NCBI GenBank assembly: GCA_021325135.1
Contig: JAJPHT010000046.1
Span: forward strand, 1-64,000
Length of the DNA: 64,000 nucleotides
From: Pseudomonadota bacterium
Lineage (GTDB): Archaea > Thermoplasmatota > SW-10-69-26 > JACQPN01 > JAJPHT01
Direction: 5' to 3'
Position numbers and translations under genes: made by a program. Position 1 is the first letter of the stretch, and the number at the start of each line of letters is the position of its first letter. Positions 17,506-52,858 of the stretch are shown piece after piece. Under the pieces are notes generated by a model. It had not been told where the DNA came from, made no database searches, and saw nothing but the letters and a program-made list of their open reading frames with translations.

Positions 17506-19032
17506 ATGCCCCGCGCCCTGCTCCTTGCCGCGCTGCTCCTCCTGCCCGCCCTGGCGGGGTGCCTGGGCGCCCAGCCCTCGGCCACCCCCGCGTCGGGCTC
17601 CGCCGCCTGCGTGGCGGGCTCCGCCGCGTGCGCCATCGTGGACGGCGCGTCCACCGTGGCGCCCAAGGAGCGGCAGGCCAACGAGCTCTCCATCGCGGTG
17701 AACCCGACGAACCCGCTCAACGTCATCGCGACGGGCAAGGACTACACGCCCGACGAGGCGGGCGACTGCACGTGGGCGGGCGTGTACGCGACGACGGACG
17801 GCGGCAAGACGTGGAAGGACCAGAACGTGCCGGGCTCCCCGTGGAAGATGCGCAGCGACCCCACGGCCGCGCAGGACCGCACTCCCTTCAGCACCTTCTG
17901 GTGCGCCACCGACCCCGTCGTGCGCTTCGGCCCCGACGGCACGGCGTACTGGGCCGTCATGCCCTACCAGTGCGACCCGGCCTCCGGCAGCAAGACCGGC
18001 GAGGGCACGCTCCCCCAGGGCGGGCTCAACGACTTCGCGTTCACGTGCAGCGCGATGTACATCCTCGTCTCCACCGACGGGGGCCTCACGTGGCCCTTGG
18101 ACAAGGCGCGGCAGATCAGCACGGGCGGCTACCTGGTCCACGACAAGGAGTGGATCGCCGTCTCGCAGGACGGCAACCGCCTCGTCTACTGCTGGGACTA
18201 CCAGGGGCTTGGCGCCACGACGCCCGACATGATGGTCCACGCGCCCGACCCCAACGAGAGCGGCGTCGTGTGCAGCGTCTCCAAGGACAAGGCCAACACG
18301 TGGAGCGACTTCGCCTTCGCGACCGCCGTGGGCGGCAGCCCCGAGGTGGACTTCGACGCCAAGGGCAAGGCGTGGATGGTCGTCACCGGCGCGGATGGCC
18401 ACTACGTGCTCTCCAGCGACGACGGCCTGAAGTGGAGCCAGCCCGTGAAGGCGGCCACGTTCAAGGACCCCAGCGCGCAGAACGCCCACGGCCGCAACGT
18501 GCTCAACGGCAGCGAGTTCCGCGTCTCCTCCTACGGCACCATCGCCGTGGACCGCGGCAACGGCACGCACGCCGGGCGCGTCTACGTGGCGTACTTCGAC
18601 TACAGCGCGGGCAACGGCGAGACGATGCTCGTCTGGAGCGACGACGGCAAGACGTGGAGCCAGCCCGTCCGCGTGAACGACGACGCGGGCAGCGCCGACC
18701 AGTTCCTCCCCGCCTTGAGCGTGGGCCCCGACGGCACGGTGGACGTCTCGTGGCAGGACCGCCGCGACGACCCCGCCAACCACCTCTTCGCGACGTACTA
18801 CGCGTACAGCCTCGACGGGGGCGCCACCTTCTCGCGCAACCAGCGCGTCAGCAGCGCGCTCTCGGACGAGCAGTACTCGCACCACCAGAACGGCGACGTC
18901 TTCCTGGGCGACTACCGCGACATGGGCTCCTCGCGCGGCTCCGCCACCATGGTGTGGGTCGACACGAGGAACCACAAGGCCGATGCCTTCGTGGCGACGG
19001 TGCCGCGGCCCTCGGCGGACGCCGCGCGGTGA
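17506..19032 (+). CDS. BNR/sialidase-fold lipoprotein (close paralogue of 51326-52858)
   Basis: LPALAGC lipobox; TTDGGKTWKD, STDGGLTWP, SDDGLKWSQ, SDDGKTWSQ; KDYTPDEAGDC shared with the paralogue. Confidence 0.88.
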   Translation: MPRALLLAALLLLPALAGCLGAQPSATPASGSAACVAGSAACAIVDGASTVAPKERQANELSIAVNPTNPLNVIATGKDYTPDEAGDCTWAGVYATTDGGKTWKDQNVPGSPWKMRSDPTAAQDRTPFSTFWCATDPVVRFGPDGTAYWAVMPYQCDPASGSKTGEGTLPQGGLNDFAFTCSAMYILVSTDGGLTWPLDKARQISTGGYLVHDKEWIAVSQDGNRLVYCWDYQGLGATTPDMMVHAPDPNESGVVCSVSKDKANTWSDFAFATAVGGSPEVDFDAKGKAWMVVTGADGHYVLSSDDGLKWSQPVKAATFKDPSAQNAHGRNVLNGSEFRVSSYGTIAVDRGNGTHAGRVYVAYFDYSAGNGETMLVWSDDGKTWSQPVRVNDDAGSADQFLPALSVGPDGTVDVSWQDRRDDPANHLFATYYAYSLDGGATFSRNQRVSSALSDEQYSHHQNGDVFLGDYRDMGSSRGSATMVWVDTRNHKADAFVATVPRPSADAAR

Positions 19033-19167
19033 GGGCCTCGCTCCGGATCGCCGCTGCCGGCTCGCGTGTGGTGAAGGACGAGCGCTCCACGGTCTCGCAT
19101 CCGCGGCCCCCTGAAACCCCGTTGCAGTCGGGTACCGTCCAACTGAATCAAGCGCATTGCGGGTTCT

Positions 19168-20472
19168 GTGTCCAAATCAGGTCGGACCGACCAGTCAAAT
19201 TCCCGCTCGGCACCCACTCAGGATACGCTTTGCGAGCAAGACGCGTTCCGTGGAGACGAAGAATCTCACCGAGTAGTTCCAGTGGAAGTTGAAGTTCTCC
19301 CTGCGCGCGAGAATTCTCTGCAAGAGTGGCCGACGATACCGGCAGAGCTTAAGGCGGAGGGCAAACCTTGGCTTAGAGTCCTGATGCCCGAGACTTTCAA
19401 CTCAGCGCTGCCTGGCGAGCAACAGTCGATTCGCCGCGGAGCTTGGGTGGACGCATTGCCGGAGCCTGGGTCCGTAGTAGTGCGCGTCGGCGACTCTGCT
19501 TCACTGCTTCGCGACCTCGCGCCGGAATCGGTCGATTGCGTGATTACCAGCCCCCCATATTGGGGTCATCGCGACTATTCGGCAGGTGGCATTGGACAGG
19601 AGCCGACCGTCCAGGGCTATGTGGAGGCATTGCTCTCAGTTTTCGAGCCGCTTCAGAAGGCGCTCAAACCGACGGGATCATTCTGGCTCAACCTCGGTGA
19701 CACATATCGAAGCAAGCGGCTGCAGGGGATACCTTGGCGAGTGGCCATAGCGATGGTGGATGAACAAGACTGGATTCTTCGCAACGATGTTATTTGGAAC
19801 AAGGTGAAAGGATCGCCAGACAACGCGAAGGACAAGCTTCGCAATCTGCACGAGCACATCTTTCATTTTGTGAAGGACCCAAAGAAAGCATACTACGACG
19901 TTGACGCAATTCGCAGGCCGCCTCGGGCGGCTACGGAGCGAAACGGCAAGGTTCAGTCCGCAACCGGCGTTAGTGGAACAAGATACCGTCGCCAAATCGA
20001 GCTCTCCACCGTCCTTTCGGAAACGGAGAAGGTGGCCGCGATGAGCGCTCTAGATGAGATGATGCAAAGCGTCAAAGCGGGGGAGATATCCGACTTTCGA
20101 ATGGTCATTCGTGGAGTCCATCGAGTCACTCACTCGGACTCGGTTCGGCTCTCAGGGCGCGCCAAGGAACTCGCCGACCGAGGTTTCTACTTCCTCAAGT
20201 ATCATCCAAAAGGAGCGAAACCATCGGACATCTGGGAGATTATTCCCGAAGACACACACGGAAGGGAAGCCCACTATGCTGCCTACCCCGAAGCGCTCTG
20301 CGAGATTCCAATTCAGGCAACGTGCCCTCCGGATGGCCTCGTGCTTGATCCCTTCCTCGGTACGGGTACAACACTTGTCGTAGCAAAGCGGTTGGGTCGC
20401 CGTGCGCTCGGTATTGACATCTCCAAAGAGTATGCAGCAATTGCAGAAGCCCGCATCAAAGAGGTTGCATGA
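19168..20472 (+). CDS. DNA methyltransferase (SPPY-type, N4-cytosine/N6-adenine class) of a type II RM system
   Basis: CVITSPPYWGHRDY catalytic motif; GTGTTLVVAKRLGRRALGIDISKEY SAM-binding region; GTG start; lower-GC region. Confidence 0.92.
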   Translation: MSKSGRTDQSNSRSAPTQDTLCEQDAFRGDEESHRVVPVEVEVLPARENSLQEWPTIPAELKAEGKPWLRVLMPETFNSALPGEQQSIRRGAWVDALPEPGSVVVRVGDSASLLRDLAPESVDCVITSPPYWGHRDYSAGGIGQEPTVQGYVEALLSVFEPLQKALKPTGSFWLNLGDTYRSKRLQGIPWRVAIAMVDEQDWILRNDVIWNKVKGSPDNAKDKLRNLHEHIFHFVKDPKKAYYDVDAIRRPPRAATERNGKVQSATGVSGTRYRRQIELSTVLSETEKVAAMSALDEMMQSVKAGEISDFRMVIRGVHRVTHSDSVRLSGRAKELADRGFYFLKYHPKGAKPSDIWEIIPEDTHGREAHYAAYPEALCEIPIQATCPPDGLVLDPFLGTGTTLVVAKRLGRRALGIDISKEYAAIAEARIKEVA

Positions 20473-21317
20473 GTCGCGTCCTCGAGCTCTTTGGTGAGCC
20501 TACGTCAAGGAGCGGCCCTCATTGGGCAGCCCTCACAACGGGGCAAATTTGCCCGTTCACGAGGACGAAGTGCTTTAAGGTCCGCAAGAGCGATCCGACA
20601 ATATCCATCGGTTCGTGCACAGTCGGCTACGGAGTGGATGAAAATCCCGGGATCGTTTGCCCCAACCGATTTCTTGAGAGAGATAGGATATTCCTGGACT
20701 CAATCCATCTGTTGACTTCGCATGAGCCAGGCAACGACTTGCACGTTATTCCTGAGACCGCTGTGCCCGGTGGGAGCATCGATTATTTCCTAGTTTCTGC
20801 TCGCCGCGGCAAAGTCCAGGATTTTGTCGGAATCGAAGTCCAAGGCCTCGACACAACCGGAACTGTCTGGCCCGAAAGAGAACGTTTCCTTCGGGACCTT
20901 GAACTACCGCATGACAAAGTCGCAGCCAAGAGCGACAAGCCGTTCGGTATCAATTGGAAGATGTCAGCGAAAACGATTCTAGTCCAGCTGCATCACAAAA
21001 TCGAAACTTTCGAACACATTGGCAAGAAGCTCGTCCTCGCCGATCAGGACATCCTTTATGATTACATGCGTCGAGAGTTCTCGTTTGACCATGTAGCCAA
21101 CGAGGCTCGTCTCGGTGACTCGATGCACTTCCACAATTATGCGCTCACAGTGCACCAAGGCGAATTCCGGCTAGAGTTGGCTTCTCGCAAGAGCACCGAC
21201 GCGGCGGGTGTAGCCAGGTGCCTTGGCCTTCAGAGTGAAGCTCGCGTTGAGCTTTCGTATTTCGTGGAAAAGCTCGAAGCGGCCTTAACTCCCCAGAACC
21301 GGTTATCGTTGCGATGA
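20469..21317 (+). CDS. NotI-like type II restriction endonuclease
   Basis: Four Cys arranged ICPFTRTKCFK...SIGSC...IVCPN (Cys4 site as in NotI); IDYFLVSAR...FVGIEVQ fits D-x(n)-ExQ; ATGA overlap with the methyltransferase. Confidence 0.78.
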   Translation: MSRVLELFGEPTSRSGPHWAALTTGQICPFTRTKCFKVRKSDPTISIGSCTVGYGVDENPGIVCPNRFLERDRIFLDSIHLLTSHEPGNDLHVIPETAVPGGSIDYFLVSARRGKVQDFVGIEVQGLDTTGTVWPERERFLRDLELPHDKVAAKSDKPFGINWKMSAKTILVQLHHKIETFEHIGKKLVLADQDILYDYMRREFSFDHVANEARLGDSMHFHNYALTVHQGEFRLELASRKSTDAAGVARCLGLQSEARVELSYFVEKLEAALTPQNRLSLR

Positions 21318-21587
21318 ATGATGGGCCATAATAACGCAAAATAGCTTGTCCATTCATGACTCCACAAAAATACGTCTCCGCAGGATTATTGGGCGGCGGT
21401 GTTTCACGGCAGTACGCGCAACTGGTCGCTGCTGCCCCTTCCTCCCTTTCTCCGTGCCAAACCACCAGATCCTCGGACCTCGGCACAACCGCCGGGGATT
21501 CGGCATGGACGGGGGGCCTCGGGCGAGGGGGATTCTGCAACACCGTCAAGCCCTGCGATCGCGCCAGGCCGGTCGCGCGCGGTCCCC

Positions 21588-22664
21588 TCACGACGCGCGC
21601 CGCGGGCTGGCGAAGAGGCGCACCTCGCGCCCCACGCGCTCGCGCTGCACCTGCCCCTCGCGGGCGAGGCGCGCGACGTGGTAGTGCACCAGCGTGGGGC
21701 GCTTCGCCAAGGCGTCCGCGATGGCGGCGTTGGTCATGCCGGGGTGCTCCTCGACGTACTGGAGCACCTGCGCGACCAGCGGGGGCTGCCCCGAGCGGGG
21801 GCGCGCGTCGGAGGCCCAGAAGCGGCGCAGGCGGCCGTCCGTCGTGGAGCGCACGTAGCCGTGCCGCTGGAGGACCGCCAGGTGGTGGAGGAGCGCGCCG
21901 TTGCGCAGGCCGGTGGCGCGCTTGAGGCCGGCGAGGTTCGCGCCGGGCTCGCGCTGCACCTCGCGGAACACGCGCAGCCGGCGCGCGTTGTCCAGCGCGT
22001 CGCCCGCCGCGAGGCGCGTGTAGAGCGGCGCGAGCAGCGCGGCGAGCCACCGGCGCAGGCGGGGCCACGCGTGGATCGCGGTGTGCGCGCCCGCGCCCAG
22101 GACCACCGTCGCGGCGAGGGCCGTCGTGACGGCGACCGCCTCGGGGCCGGGCCCAACGGGGGGAGGCGGCGCGACGGCCGACGGGGGCGCCGCCGCGGCG
22201 GGCGCGGAGACCTCGGGAGGGAGCGCCTCGGGCGGAGGGCGCGGCGTCCACGCCAGCGCGACGCCCGCAGCGCCGGGCGGGGGCGCAGGCTCGGAGGGGG
22301 ACGAGTCCGGCGGAGCGGCGAAGGGCGTCTCGGCCGGGAGCGCCTGCACAGGGGGCGCCTCGGTGGGGGGCCCCTCGACGGGGGGCTCGCCGGTGGTGGG
22401 GGCCGCGTCCACGAGGGCCTCCGGCTGCGCGACGGGGGCCGGAGCGGAGGGAACGGGAGCGGCGGGCGGAGGGGGCTCAGGGGGAAGCTGCGGGGGCGGG
22501 GCCTTGGAAGGAGGGGGGATCGGCGGCGGCGCGGGGTCGCCGTCGTGGAGGCGATGCCAGCCCCAGGCGTTTCCCTGGGGCTCCTTGGCCGGGGGCTGGT
22601 CCGCGAGGGCGAAGCCCGCCAGGGAGAGGCACGTCACGAGGATAAGGAGGGCCTGGGGACCCAC
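21588..22664 (-). CDS. Membrane-anchored, Pro-rich, double winged-helix regulator
   Basis: GTG start VGPQALLILVTCLSLAGFALA, about 100 aa Pro-rich stretch, second TM, C-terminal tandem wHTH (HHLAVLQRHGYVR..., HYHVARLAREGQVQRE). Confidence 0.75.
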   Translation of the reverse strand: MGPQALLILVTCLSLAGFALADQPPAKEPQGNAWGWHRLHDGDPAPPPIPPPSKAPPPQLPPEPPPPAAPVPSAPAPVAQPEALVDAAPTTGEPPVEGPPTEAPPVQALPAETPFAAPPDSSPSEPAPPPGAAGVALAWTPRPPPEALPPEVSAPAAAAPPSAVAPPPPVGPGPEAVAVTTALAATVVLGAGAHTAIHAWPRLRRWLAALLAPLYTRLAAGDALDNARRLRVFREVQREPGANLAGLKRATGLRNGALLHHLAVLQRHGYVRSTTDGRLRRFWASDARPRSGQPPLVAQVLQYVEEHPGMTNAAIADALAKRPTLVHYHVARLAREGQVQRERVGREVRLFASPRRAS

Positions 22665-22791
22665 GGGGCCCCCGATGCCACGCCCGGAGCATGACCGGCG
22701 CCGGTTTTCCGGAAGCGCACGCGGCGCCAGAAGGACCCCACGATCCAAGTCGCTCCAGCGAGGGTATGCCCCTCCGCGGCGAGGACCGCCC

Positions 22792-22983
22792 ATGCGCTCG
22801 ATCGTGGAGACCCTGCTCGTGGACGAGACCTTGAAGCACATGCCCCCCGAGGGCGGCAGCGGCGCCTACACCAACGCGCACCTGGAGCGCGTCGCGATCC
22901 GTCACCTGTTCGGGCAACGGGGGGCCGACTTCGCGGACGCGCTGATGCGCGCGGCGGAGGAGCGGCGGATCAGGCGATCTTGA
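22792..22983 (+). CDS. Small protein (63 aa)
   Basis: MRSIVETLLVDETLKHMPPEGGSGAYTNAHLERVAIRHLFGQRGADFADALMRAAEERRIRRS; 3' end overlaps carA 3' end. Confidence 0.5.
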   Translation: MRSIVETLLVDETLKHMPPEGGSGAYTNAHLERVAIRHLFGQRGADFADALMRAAEERRIRRS

Positions 22984-51325: not shown

Positions 51326-52858
51326 ATGAAGGCCCCGCTCCTCGCGCTGCTCCTGGCCATCCCCGCGCTGACGGGCTGCATTCAGCCCTCCACGCCGACG
51401 CCCGCGCCCGGCTCGTTCGGCGACTCGGCCGCGAAGCTGGCGTGCATCGATGGCGCGTGCAACTTCCAGGCGACGGCGTCGCCCTCGGGCCGCCAGGGGA
51501 ACGAGGTCTCCGTCGCGGTGAACCCCGCCGACCCCAAGGTCATCATCGCCACCGCCAAGGACTACACGCCCGACGAGGCGGGGGACTGCGTGTGGGCGGG
51601 CCTCTACAGCACGCAGGACGGCGGCAAGACGTGGCTGGACCAGAACGTGCCCGGCTCGCCGTGGAAGCACGAGAGCGATCCCACCACGCCCGTCACGGCG
51701 TTCACGAAGTTCTGGTGCGCCACCGATCCCGTGGTCGCGTGGAGCCCCGACGGCAAGACCGGCTACTGGGCCGTGATGCCCTACCAGTGCGATCCCGTCT
51801 CGGGGAGCAAGACGGGGCGCGGCACGGAGTCCAGGGGCGGGTTCAACGACTGGCTCTACACCTGCAGCAGCATGTTCGTCCTCGTCTCGCACGACGGGGG
51901 GAAGACGTGGCCCGCGGACGAGGCGCAGCAGGTGAGCCTCGGGCCTTTCATCGCCAACGACAAGGAGTGGATCAGCGTCTCGCCCGACGGCAAGAAGGTC
52001 CTCCTCTGCTGGGACTACGCGGGCGACACCGGCGGCGGGCCTGGCCTCCCCGGCGAGATCCCCGGGCTCCCCTTCGGGACGCCCAGCCCCAACGCGGCCG
52101 TCGTGTGCTCCGTCTCCGCGGACCAGGCCAAGACGTGGAGCAAGCCCGCGCCCGCCACCGACGCGGGCGGCTTCCCGTGGCTGGACTTCGACTCCACCGG
52201 CAAGGCGTGGATGGCCGTCGTCAACGACAGCGCGGTGCTGGTGCTCAGCAGCGCGGACGGCGTCTCGTGGAGCAAGCCCGTCGTGGCCGCCAGCTACGGC
52301 ATGCCCAGCGGCACCAACGAGTACGGCTGGCCCGTGCTCAACGGCAGCGCGTTCCGCATCGTGCCCTACGGCGCCCTCGCGGTGGACCGCACCTCGGGCC
52401 CGCACCACGGGCGCCTCTACGTCGCGTACTTCGACTTCGAGAACGGCACGGGCCACGCGATGCTCACGTGGAGCGACGACGGCAAGGCGTGGAGCGCGCC
52501 CGTGGACCTCTCCGACGCGCCGCAGTTCGACCAGTTCCTGCCCGCCGTGAGCGTGGGCCCCGACGGCACCGTGGACGCCTCGTGGCTCGACCGCCGCGAC
52601 GATCCCAGGCACCACCTCTACGACCTCTATTATTCGTACAGCCTGGACGGCGGCCTCTCGTGGGCGAAGAACCTGCGCGTGACCAACGTGAGCAGCGACG
52701 AGCAGTACTCGCACCACCAGAACGGCATGGTCTTCCTGGGCGACTACCGCGACATGCGCAGCGCGCGCGGGCAGGCCACCATGATCTGGGTCGACACGCG
52801 CAACCACAAGGCGGACGCCTTCGTCGCCACCGTGGATCGCCCCTCCGCGTCGTCGTAA
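51326..52858 (+). CDS. BNR/sialidase-fold lipoprotein (paralogue of 17506-19032)
   Basis: IPALTGC lipobox; STQDGGKTWLDQNVPGSPW, SHDGGKTWP, SDDGKAWSA; shared KDYTPDEAGDC and EQYSHHQNG segments. Confidence 0.88.
   Translation: MKAPLLALLLAIPALTGCIQPSTPTPAPGSFGDSAAKLACIDGACNFQATASPSGRQGNEVSVAVNPADPKVIIATAKDYTPDEAGDCVWAGLYSTQDGGKTWLDQNVPGSPWKHESDPTTPVTAFTKFWCATDPVVAWSPDGKTGYWAVMPYQCDPVSGSKTGRGTESRGGFNDWLYTCSSMFVLVSHDGGKTWPADEAQQVSLGPFIANDKEWISVSPDGKKVLLCWDYAGDTGGGPGLPGEIPGLPFGTPSPNAAVVCSVSADQAKTWSKPAPATDAGGFPWLDFDSTGKAWMAVVNDSAVLVLSSADGVSWSKPVVAASYGMPSGTNEYGWPVLNGSAFRIVPYGALAVDRTSGPHHGRLYVAYFDFENGTGHAMLTWSDDGKAWSAPVDLSDAPQFDQFLPAVSVGPDGTVDASWLDRRDDPRHHLYDLYYSYSLDGGLSWAKNLRVTNVSSDEQYSHHQNGMVFLGDYRDMRSARGQATMIWVDTRNHKADAFVATVDRPSASS

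Follow-up and report, generated by a model that had tools for sequence, protein, structure and literature searches.

Does the stretch of low GC content within an otherwise GC-rich archaeal contig carry a NotI-like restriction-modification system acquired from elsewhere, and, if so, does this system read GCGGCCGC, the target of the classic rare cutter NotI? The first-pass annotation of the window (the whole 64,000-nucleotide stretch that was analysed) had proposed such a system on the basis of two ATGA-coupled open reading frames, one encoding an SPPY-type methyltransferase and the other a 282-aa protein. Our computations covered gene structure, family, conserved residues, whether the pairing of the two genes is kept across phyla, how foreign the composition is and how patchy the distribution. 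Both open reading frames are found as claimed, and the locus has the following features.

19168..20472, + strand: M, gene for a DNA amino-methyltransferase (beta class, SPPY motif), GTG start, 434 aa
20469..21317, + strand: R, gene for a predicted NotI-family Type II restriction endonuclease, 282 aa
20469..20472, + strand: ATGA stop/start overlap of 4 nt joining M to R, read from the sequence
20550..20660, + strand: putative Cys4 metal-site array of R (C28, C35, C50, C64), aligned with the Cys region of NotI
20781..20843, + strand: predicted catalytic D105 ... E123-x-Q125 of R, aligned with NotI
19101..21400, no strand: low-GC island, approximate limits taken from composition

Because relatives of M have 341-384 aa, the true start of M is probably the ATG at 19384, giving a protein of 362 aa, with the GTG at 19168 overextended. 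In the numbering of this shorter form, TSPPYW (55) precedes DPFLGTGTT (322), which is the motif order of the beta class, and the Pfam family N6_N4_Mtase matches M with 164 bits. A profile match shows that the catalytic domain is common to M and beta-class DNA cytosine-N4 methyltransferases (8s9n, PvuII 1boo); PvuII has an SPPY/SPPF-type motif IV and a motif order like that of M. Since the solved structures nearest to M include the DNA cytosine-N4 methyltransferases 8s9n and 8s9m, N4-methylcytosine is the likely product, although m6A is possible given that m6A enzymes match too and that the SPPY motif is compatible with either modification. Two more SPPY-type amino-methyltransferase genes are present in the same genome, at C40:132880-133590 (L051) and C29:11321-12043 (L075).

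R itself matches the NotI family of Pfam, PF12183, modestly (24.8 bits, cut-off 22). Neither a single-sequence phmmer search of R against the PDB nor a five-member clade profile recovered NotI, and diverse family profiles were needed; with profiles in which R was combined with diverse relatives, NotI (3bvq/3c25) is the sole PDB match (E 1.7e-13 and 1.1e-15). An AlphaFold model of R based on 11 sequences reached moderate confidence (pLDDT 72, pTM 0.73), an earlier model from 5 sequences having been discarded at pLDDT 43. Foldseek aligns the retained model with NotI (3c25/3bvq) with probability 1.00, E 2.6e-4 and TM 0.53, and returned no credible match besides NotI. As the rmsd is large, this alignment supports a NotI fold for R and not its details. 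The four cysteines together with D105, E123 and Q125 are invariant over 15 NotI-family members, and the last three align with D160, E182 and Q184 of NotI, the NotI numbers being counted from the family-profile alignment. In NotI itself an iron Cys4 site is present and glutamine replaces the catalytic lysine (review, PMC4081073). R shares with this Type II restriction enzyme (PDB 3bvq, 3c25; PF12183) the fold, the Cys4 region and the D...E-x-Q active site, but is shorter (282 vs 383 aa), is only about 16% identical in the fold alignment and lacks the longer stretch that separates the Cys4 part of NotI from its catalytic Asp. On profile and model evidence, R is a NotI-family enzyme. The Cys4 array and D...ExQ motif on which the first-pass annotation had based this assignment are both present, and the PF12183 comparison that it suggested as a check gave a family match, so that the first of the two outcomes that were to refute its reading, absence of any NotI-family hit, did not arise. 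R is the single NotI-family nuclease in the host genome. The profile library of a recent archaeal survey is without NotI-family nucleases (PMC10609329).

The two genes belong together. M and R overlap or nearly overlap in all ten loci compared, with the identical 4-nt overlap in five, and the M-R order is kept in these ten loci and in two more, which bears out the earlier description of a restriction-modification pair. We consider it very probable that the locus forms a complete Type II restriction-modification cassette of two genes, horizontally acquired by the archaeon, in which M marks a site and R cuts that site when it is unmarked. In host DNA, M would modify the recognition site, N4-methylcytosine being the most likely mark, and R, a translationally coupled nuclease of the PD-(D/E)xK type whose active site is E-x-Q, would cleave the same site on incoming DNA. 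The N-terminal part of R is predicted to be stabilised by a Cys4-bound metal, and the enzyme may well act as a dimer that leaves 4-nt 5' overhangs, as NotI does; the role of the pair would be defence or selfish addiction. Alternatively, the locus might be a decayed or silent remnant in which only the methyltransferase is active, leaving an epigenetic mark. In favour of this, a stop interrupts the R gene in a viral-contig relative (L073, 4068-5138) and an Oscillatoria plasmid has only a fragment, but both frames are intact in the window and every invariant residue is retained, making a remnant most improbable here.

That the cassette is foreign to its host was examined from composition and from the identity of the host. 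The lower-GC island noted at first reading is the lowest stretch of the contig, with a GC content of 0.553 over 19168-21317 (55%) against a contig mean of 0.720 (72%; sd 0.031, 2.15-kb windows), which is the deepest dip in 224 kb. In a 300-bp profile, GC stays below 0.62 from about 19.1 to 21.35 kb and is back at about 0.70 or higher on either side; GC3 is 0.59-0.60 in M and R compared with 0.92-0.99 in neighbouring genes. No integrase or transposase adjoins the pair, as had been remarked previously, nor does a tRNA; the flanking genes are of chromosomal type, and no flanking repeats of note were found at the island. Comparison with relatives for an empty site gave no insertion boundaries, these genomes lacking synteny at this spot. 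That the host is archaeal follows from ribosomal protein L21e, present in its genome and confined among our controls to archaea, and from carA on the contig, which is 77% identical at the DNA level to a same-family genome. L21e was used as the archaeal marker because no archaeal SSU rRNA was found in this incomplete assembly. As for the surroundings of the island, BNR-repeat (sialidase-like) paralogues with 74% DNA identity lie at window positions 17506-19032 and 51480-52849, the former flanking the island, and next to it, at 21588-22841 on the minus strand, is the gene of a long protein that has a proline-rich stretch and ends in two winged-helix domains.

At about 50-60% identity, the same M-R pair is found in Gammaproteobacteria, Bacteroidota and Deinococcota (including Prevotella, Deinococcales and Thiosymbion), and M is 55-59% identical to the partner methyltransferases in other phyla. 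Plasmids of Acinetobacter, Klebsiella, Enterobacter and Serratia carry the pair. The pairs on pBspH9 and pTR3_4 (Acinetobacter), pTK421_3 (Klebsiella) and pOkiPb01696_6 (E. coli) have the same two genes, order and overlap as the archaeal copy, at 50-59% identity, but are bacterial and plasmid-borne whereas the archaeal copy belongs to a genome of 72% GC and lies there in a large contig. The E. coli plasmid (L020), of 3625 bp, is annotated with RepL, M and R only, and on a viral-collection contig (L025, 1094-6631) the pair is island cargo, with a tyrosine integrase on one side and an OLD-like ATPase gene on the other. Strong matches are rare: 2 of the 369 genomes sampled from Gammaproteobacteria and 2 of the 247 from Bacteroidia have them, where each count includes the genome on which the search was centred. 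Two genomes have matches in the sample of the archaeal phylum, and in a second archaeon of this phylum R is seen alone, at a contig start. In the tree of the whole NotI family, the archaeal members need 5 changes for 5 rows, the same as with shuffled labels, and the inner forks of the R clade, including the placement of the archaeal sequence, are weakly supported. Low GC and GC3, the occurrence of the same pair in distant bacteria and on plasmids, and the scattered archaeal rows of the tree all agree with the horizontal acquisition first proposed from the sequence. The pair is therefore a widely travelled addition to known NotI-type restriction-modification and not a new kind of system.

Whether the cassette shares the specificity of NotI is a separate matter. 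As the first-pass annotation had stated, GCGGCCGC occurs several times in the window; there are 24 sites, those it cited among them, compared with 21.7 +/- 4.7 expected. If the pair were a true NotI isoschizomer, the archaeon would have to methylate its many NotI sites, and the fold family and active site common to R and NotI, together with 24 sites in need of protection, are what recommend this idea. The 224 kb contig, however, has 74 sites against 87 expected, which is no clear depletion and would fit an irrelevant site equally well; the site counts neither favour nor oppose NotI specificity. What argues against it is the setting of close relatives of R, which reside in Acinetobacter of about 35% GC with almost no targets of this kind. 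The sequence is absent from 133 kb of plasmid sequence of Acinetobacter NEB 394, where 0.5 sites are expected. An 8-bp target composed entirely of G and C is unlikely because the relatives live in AT-rich bacteria in which such a site is almost never present. With sequence identity to NotI at the low level given above, and with family members known that are paired with other methyltransferase classes, NotI isoschizomery is very unlikely, and the earlier link of the pair to GCGGCCGC is not upheld by chance-level counts, the lack of clear avoidance and AT-rich hosts. The recognition sequence of the pair is probably another one.

The partners of NotI-family nucleases bear on this question more broadly. 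At least three methyltransferase classes are found beside them, namely m5C, D12-class adenine and, in the present clade, SPPY amino-methyltransferases, and because the partner classes differ, a uniform specificity across the family appears unlikely. Enzymes accompanied by m5C methyltransferases, as in Xanthomonas citri, on Sphingobium and Sedimenticola plasmids and at the archaeal locus L006, have the nuclease family and invariant residues in common with R but are only 22-25% identical to it, have an unrelated class of methyltransferase and fall on a separate side of the tree. An archaeal genome of the same phylum (G317) contains two NotI-family nucleases on different branches, L006 and L008, the first of which adjoins an m5C-type methyltransferase gene.

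A candidate target is suggested by one relative. The name BspH is given to the systems of Acinetobacter NEB 394, the strain known as "Bacillus species H" (PMC8259958). This strain carries a relative of R on pBspH9, in the pair HUK62_RS18830 and RS18835, and if that relative were BspHI, the clade would read TCATGA and the archaeal enzyme would share, or nearly share, its specificity. The target of BspHI is TCATGA, and its cleavage gives a 4-nt 5' overhang, which is the geometry of NotI. Of the other named NEB 394 systems, two are Type III (AGCACC, CGCCC) and one is BREX (GTAGAT), and the system on pBspH5 is of the PstI family, which would give 3' overhangs. Assignment of BspHI by elimination nevertheless failed, since pBspH1 carries another candidate, an unassigned methyltransferase beside an uncharacterised protein, so that BspHI could equally be another system of the strain; the elimination, which covered plasmid sequence and took in only part of pBspH2 and pBspH3, is incomplete. 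Neither the NEB 394 plasmids nor the archaeal contig is depleted in TCATGA, and at 51% identity to the pBspH9 relative the archaeal specificity may have changed. We regard TCATGA as a lead for the clade, with perhaps a minor chance of being correct, albeit a better one than GCGGCCGC. Literature searches for a methylome of a NotI-family system found nothing.

Taken more generally, we give about even chances to the view that this NotI-fold clade is tied to m4C, reads a site other than GCGGCCGC and has spread as a minimal mobile cassette among Archaea and no fewer than three bacterial phyla. The clade, comprising natural relatives of NotI with a different type of methyltransferase, raises the useful question of whether the iron-Cys4 fold of NotI can read other sequences, and it documents the spread of one restriction-modification cassette across bacteria and archaea. 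Depletion of palindromes was also considered as a clue to specificity and set aside, the strongest cases (CTCGAG and AGCGCT) having no link to the pair and perhaps reflecting general bias. CTAG is strongly depleted in the 224 kb contig as well, with 40 sites against 231 expected.
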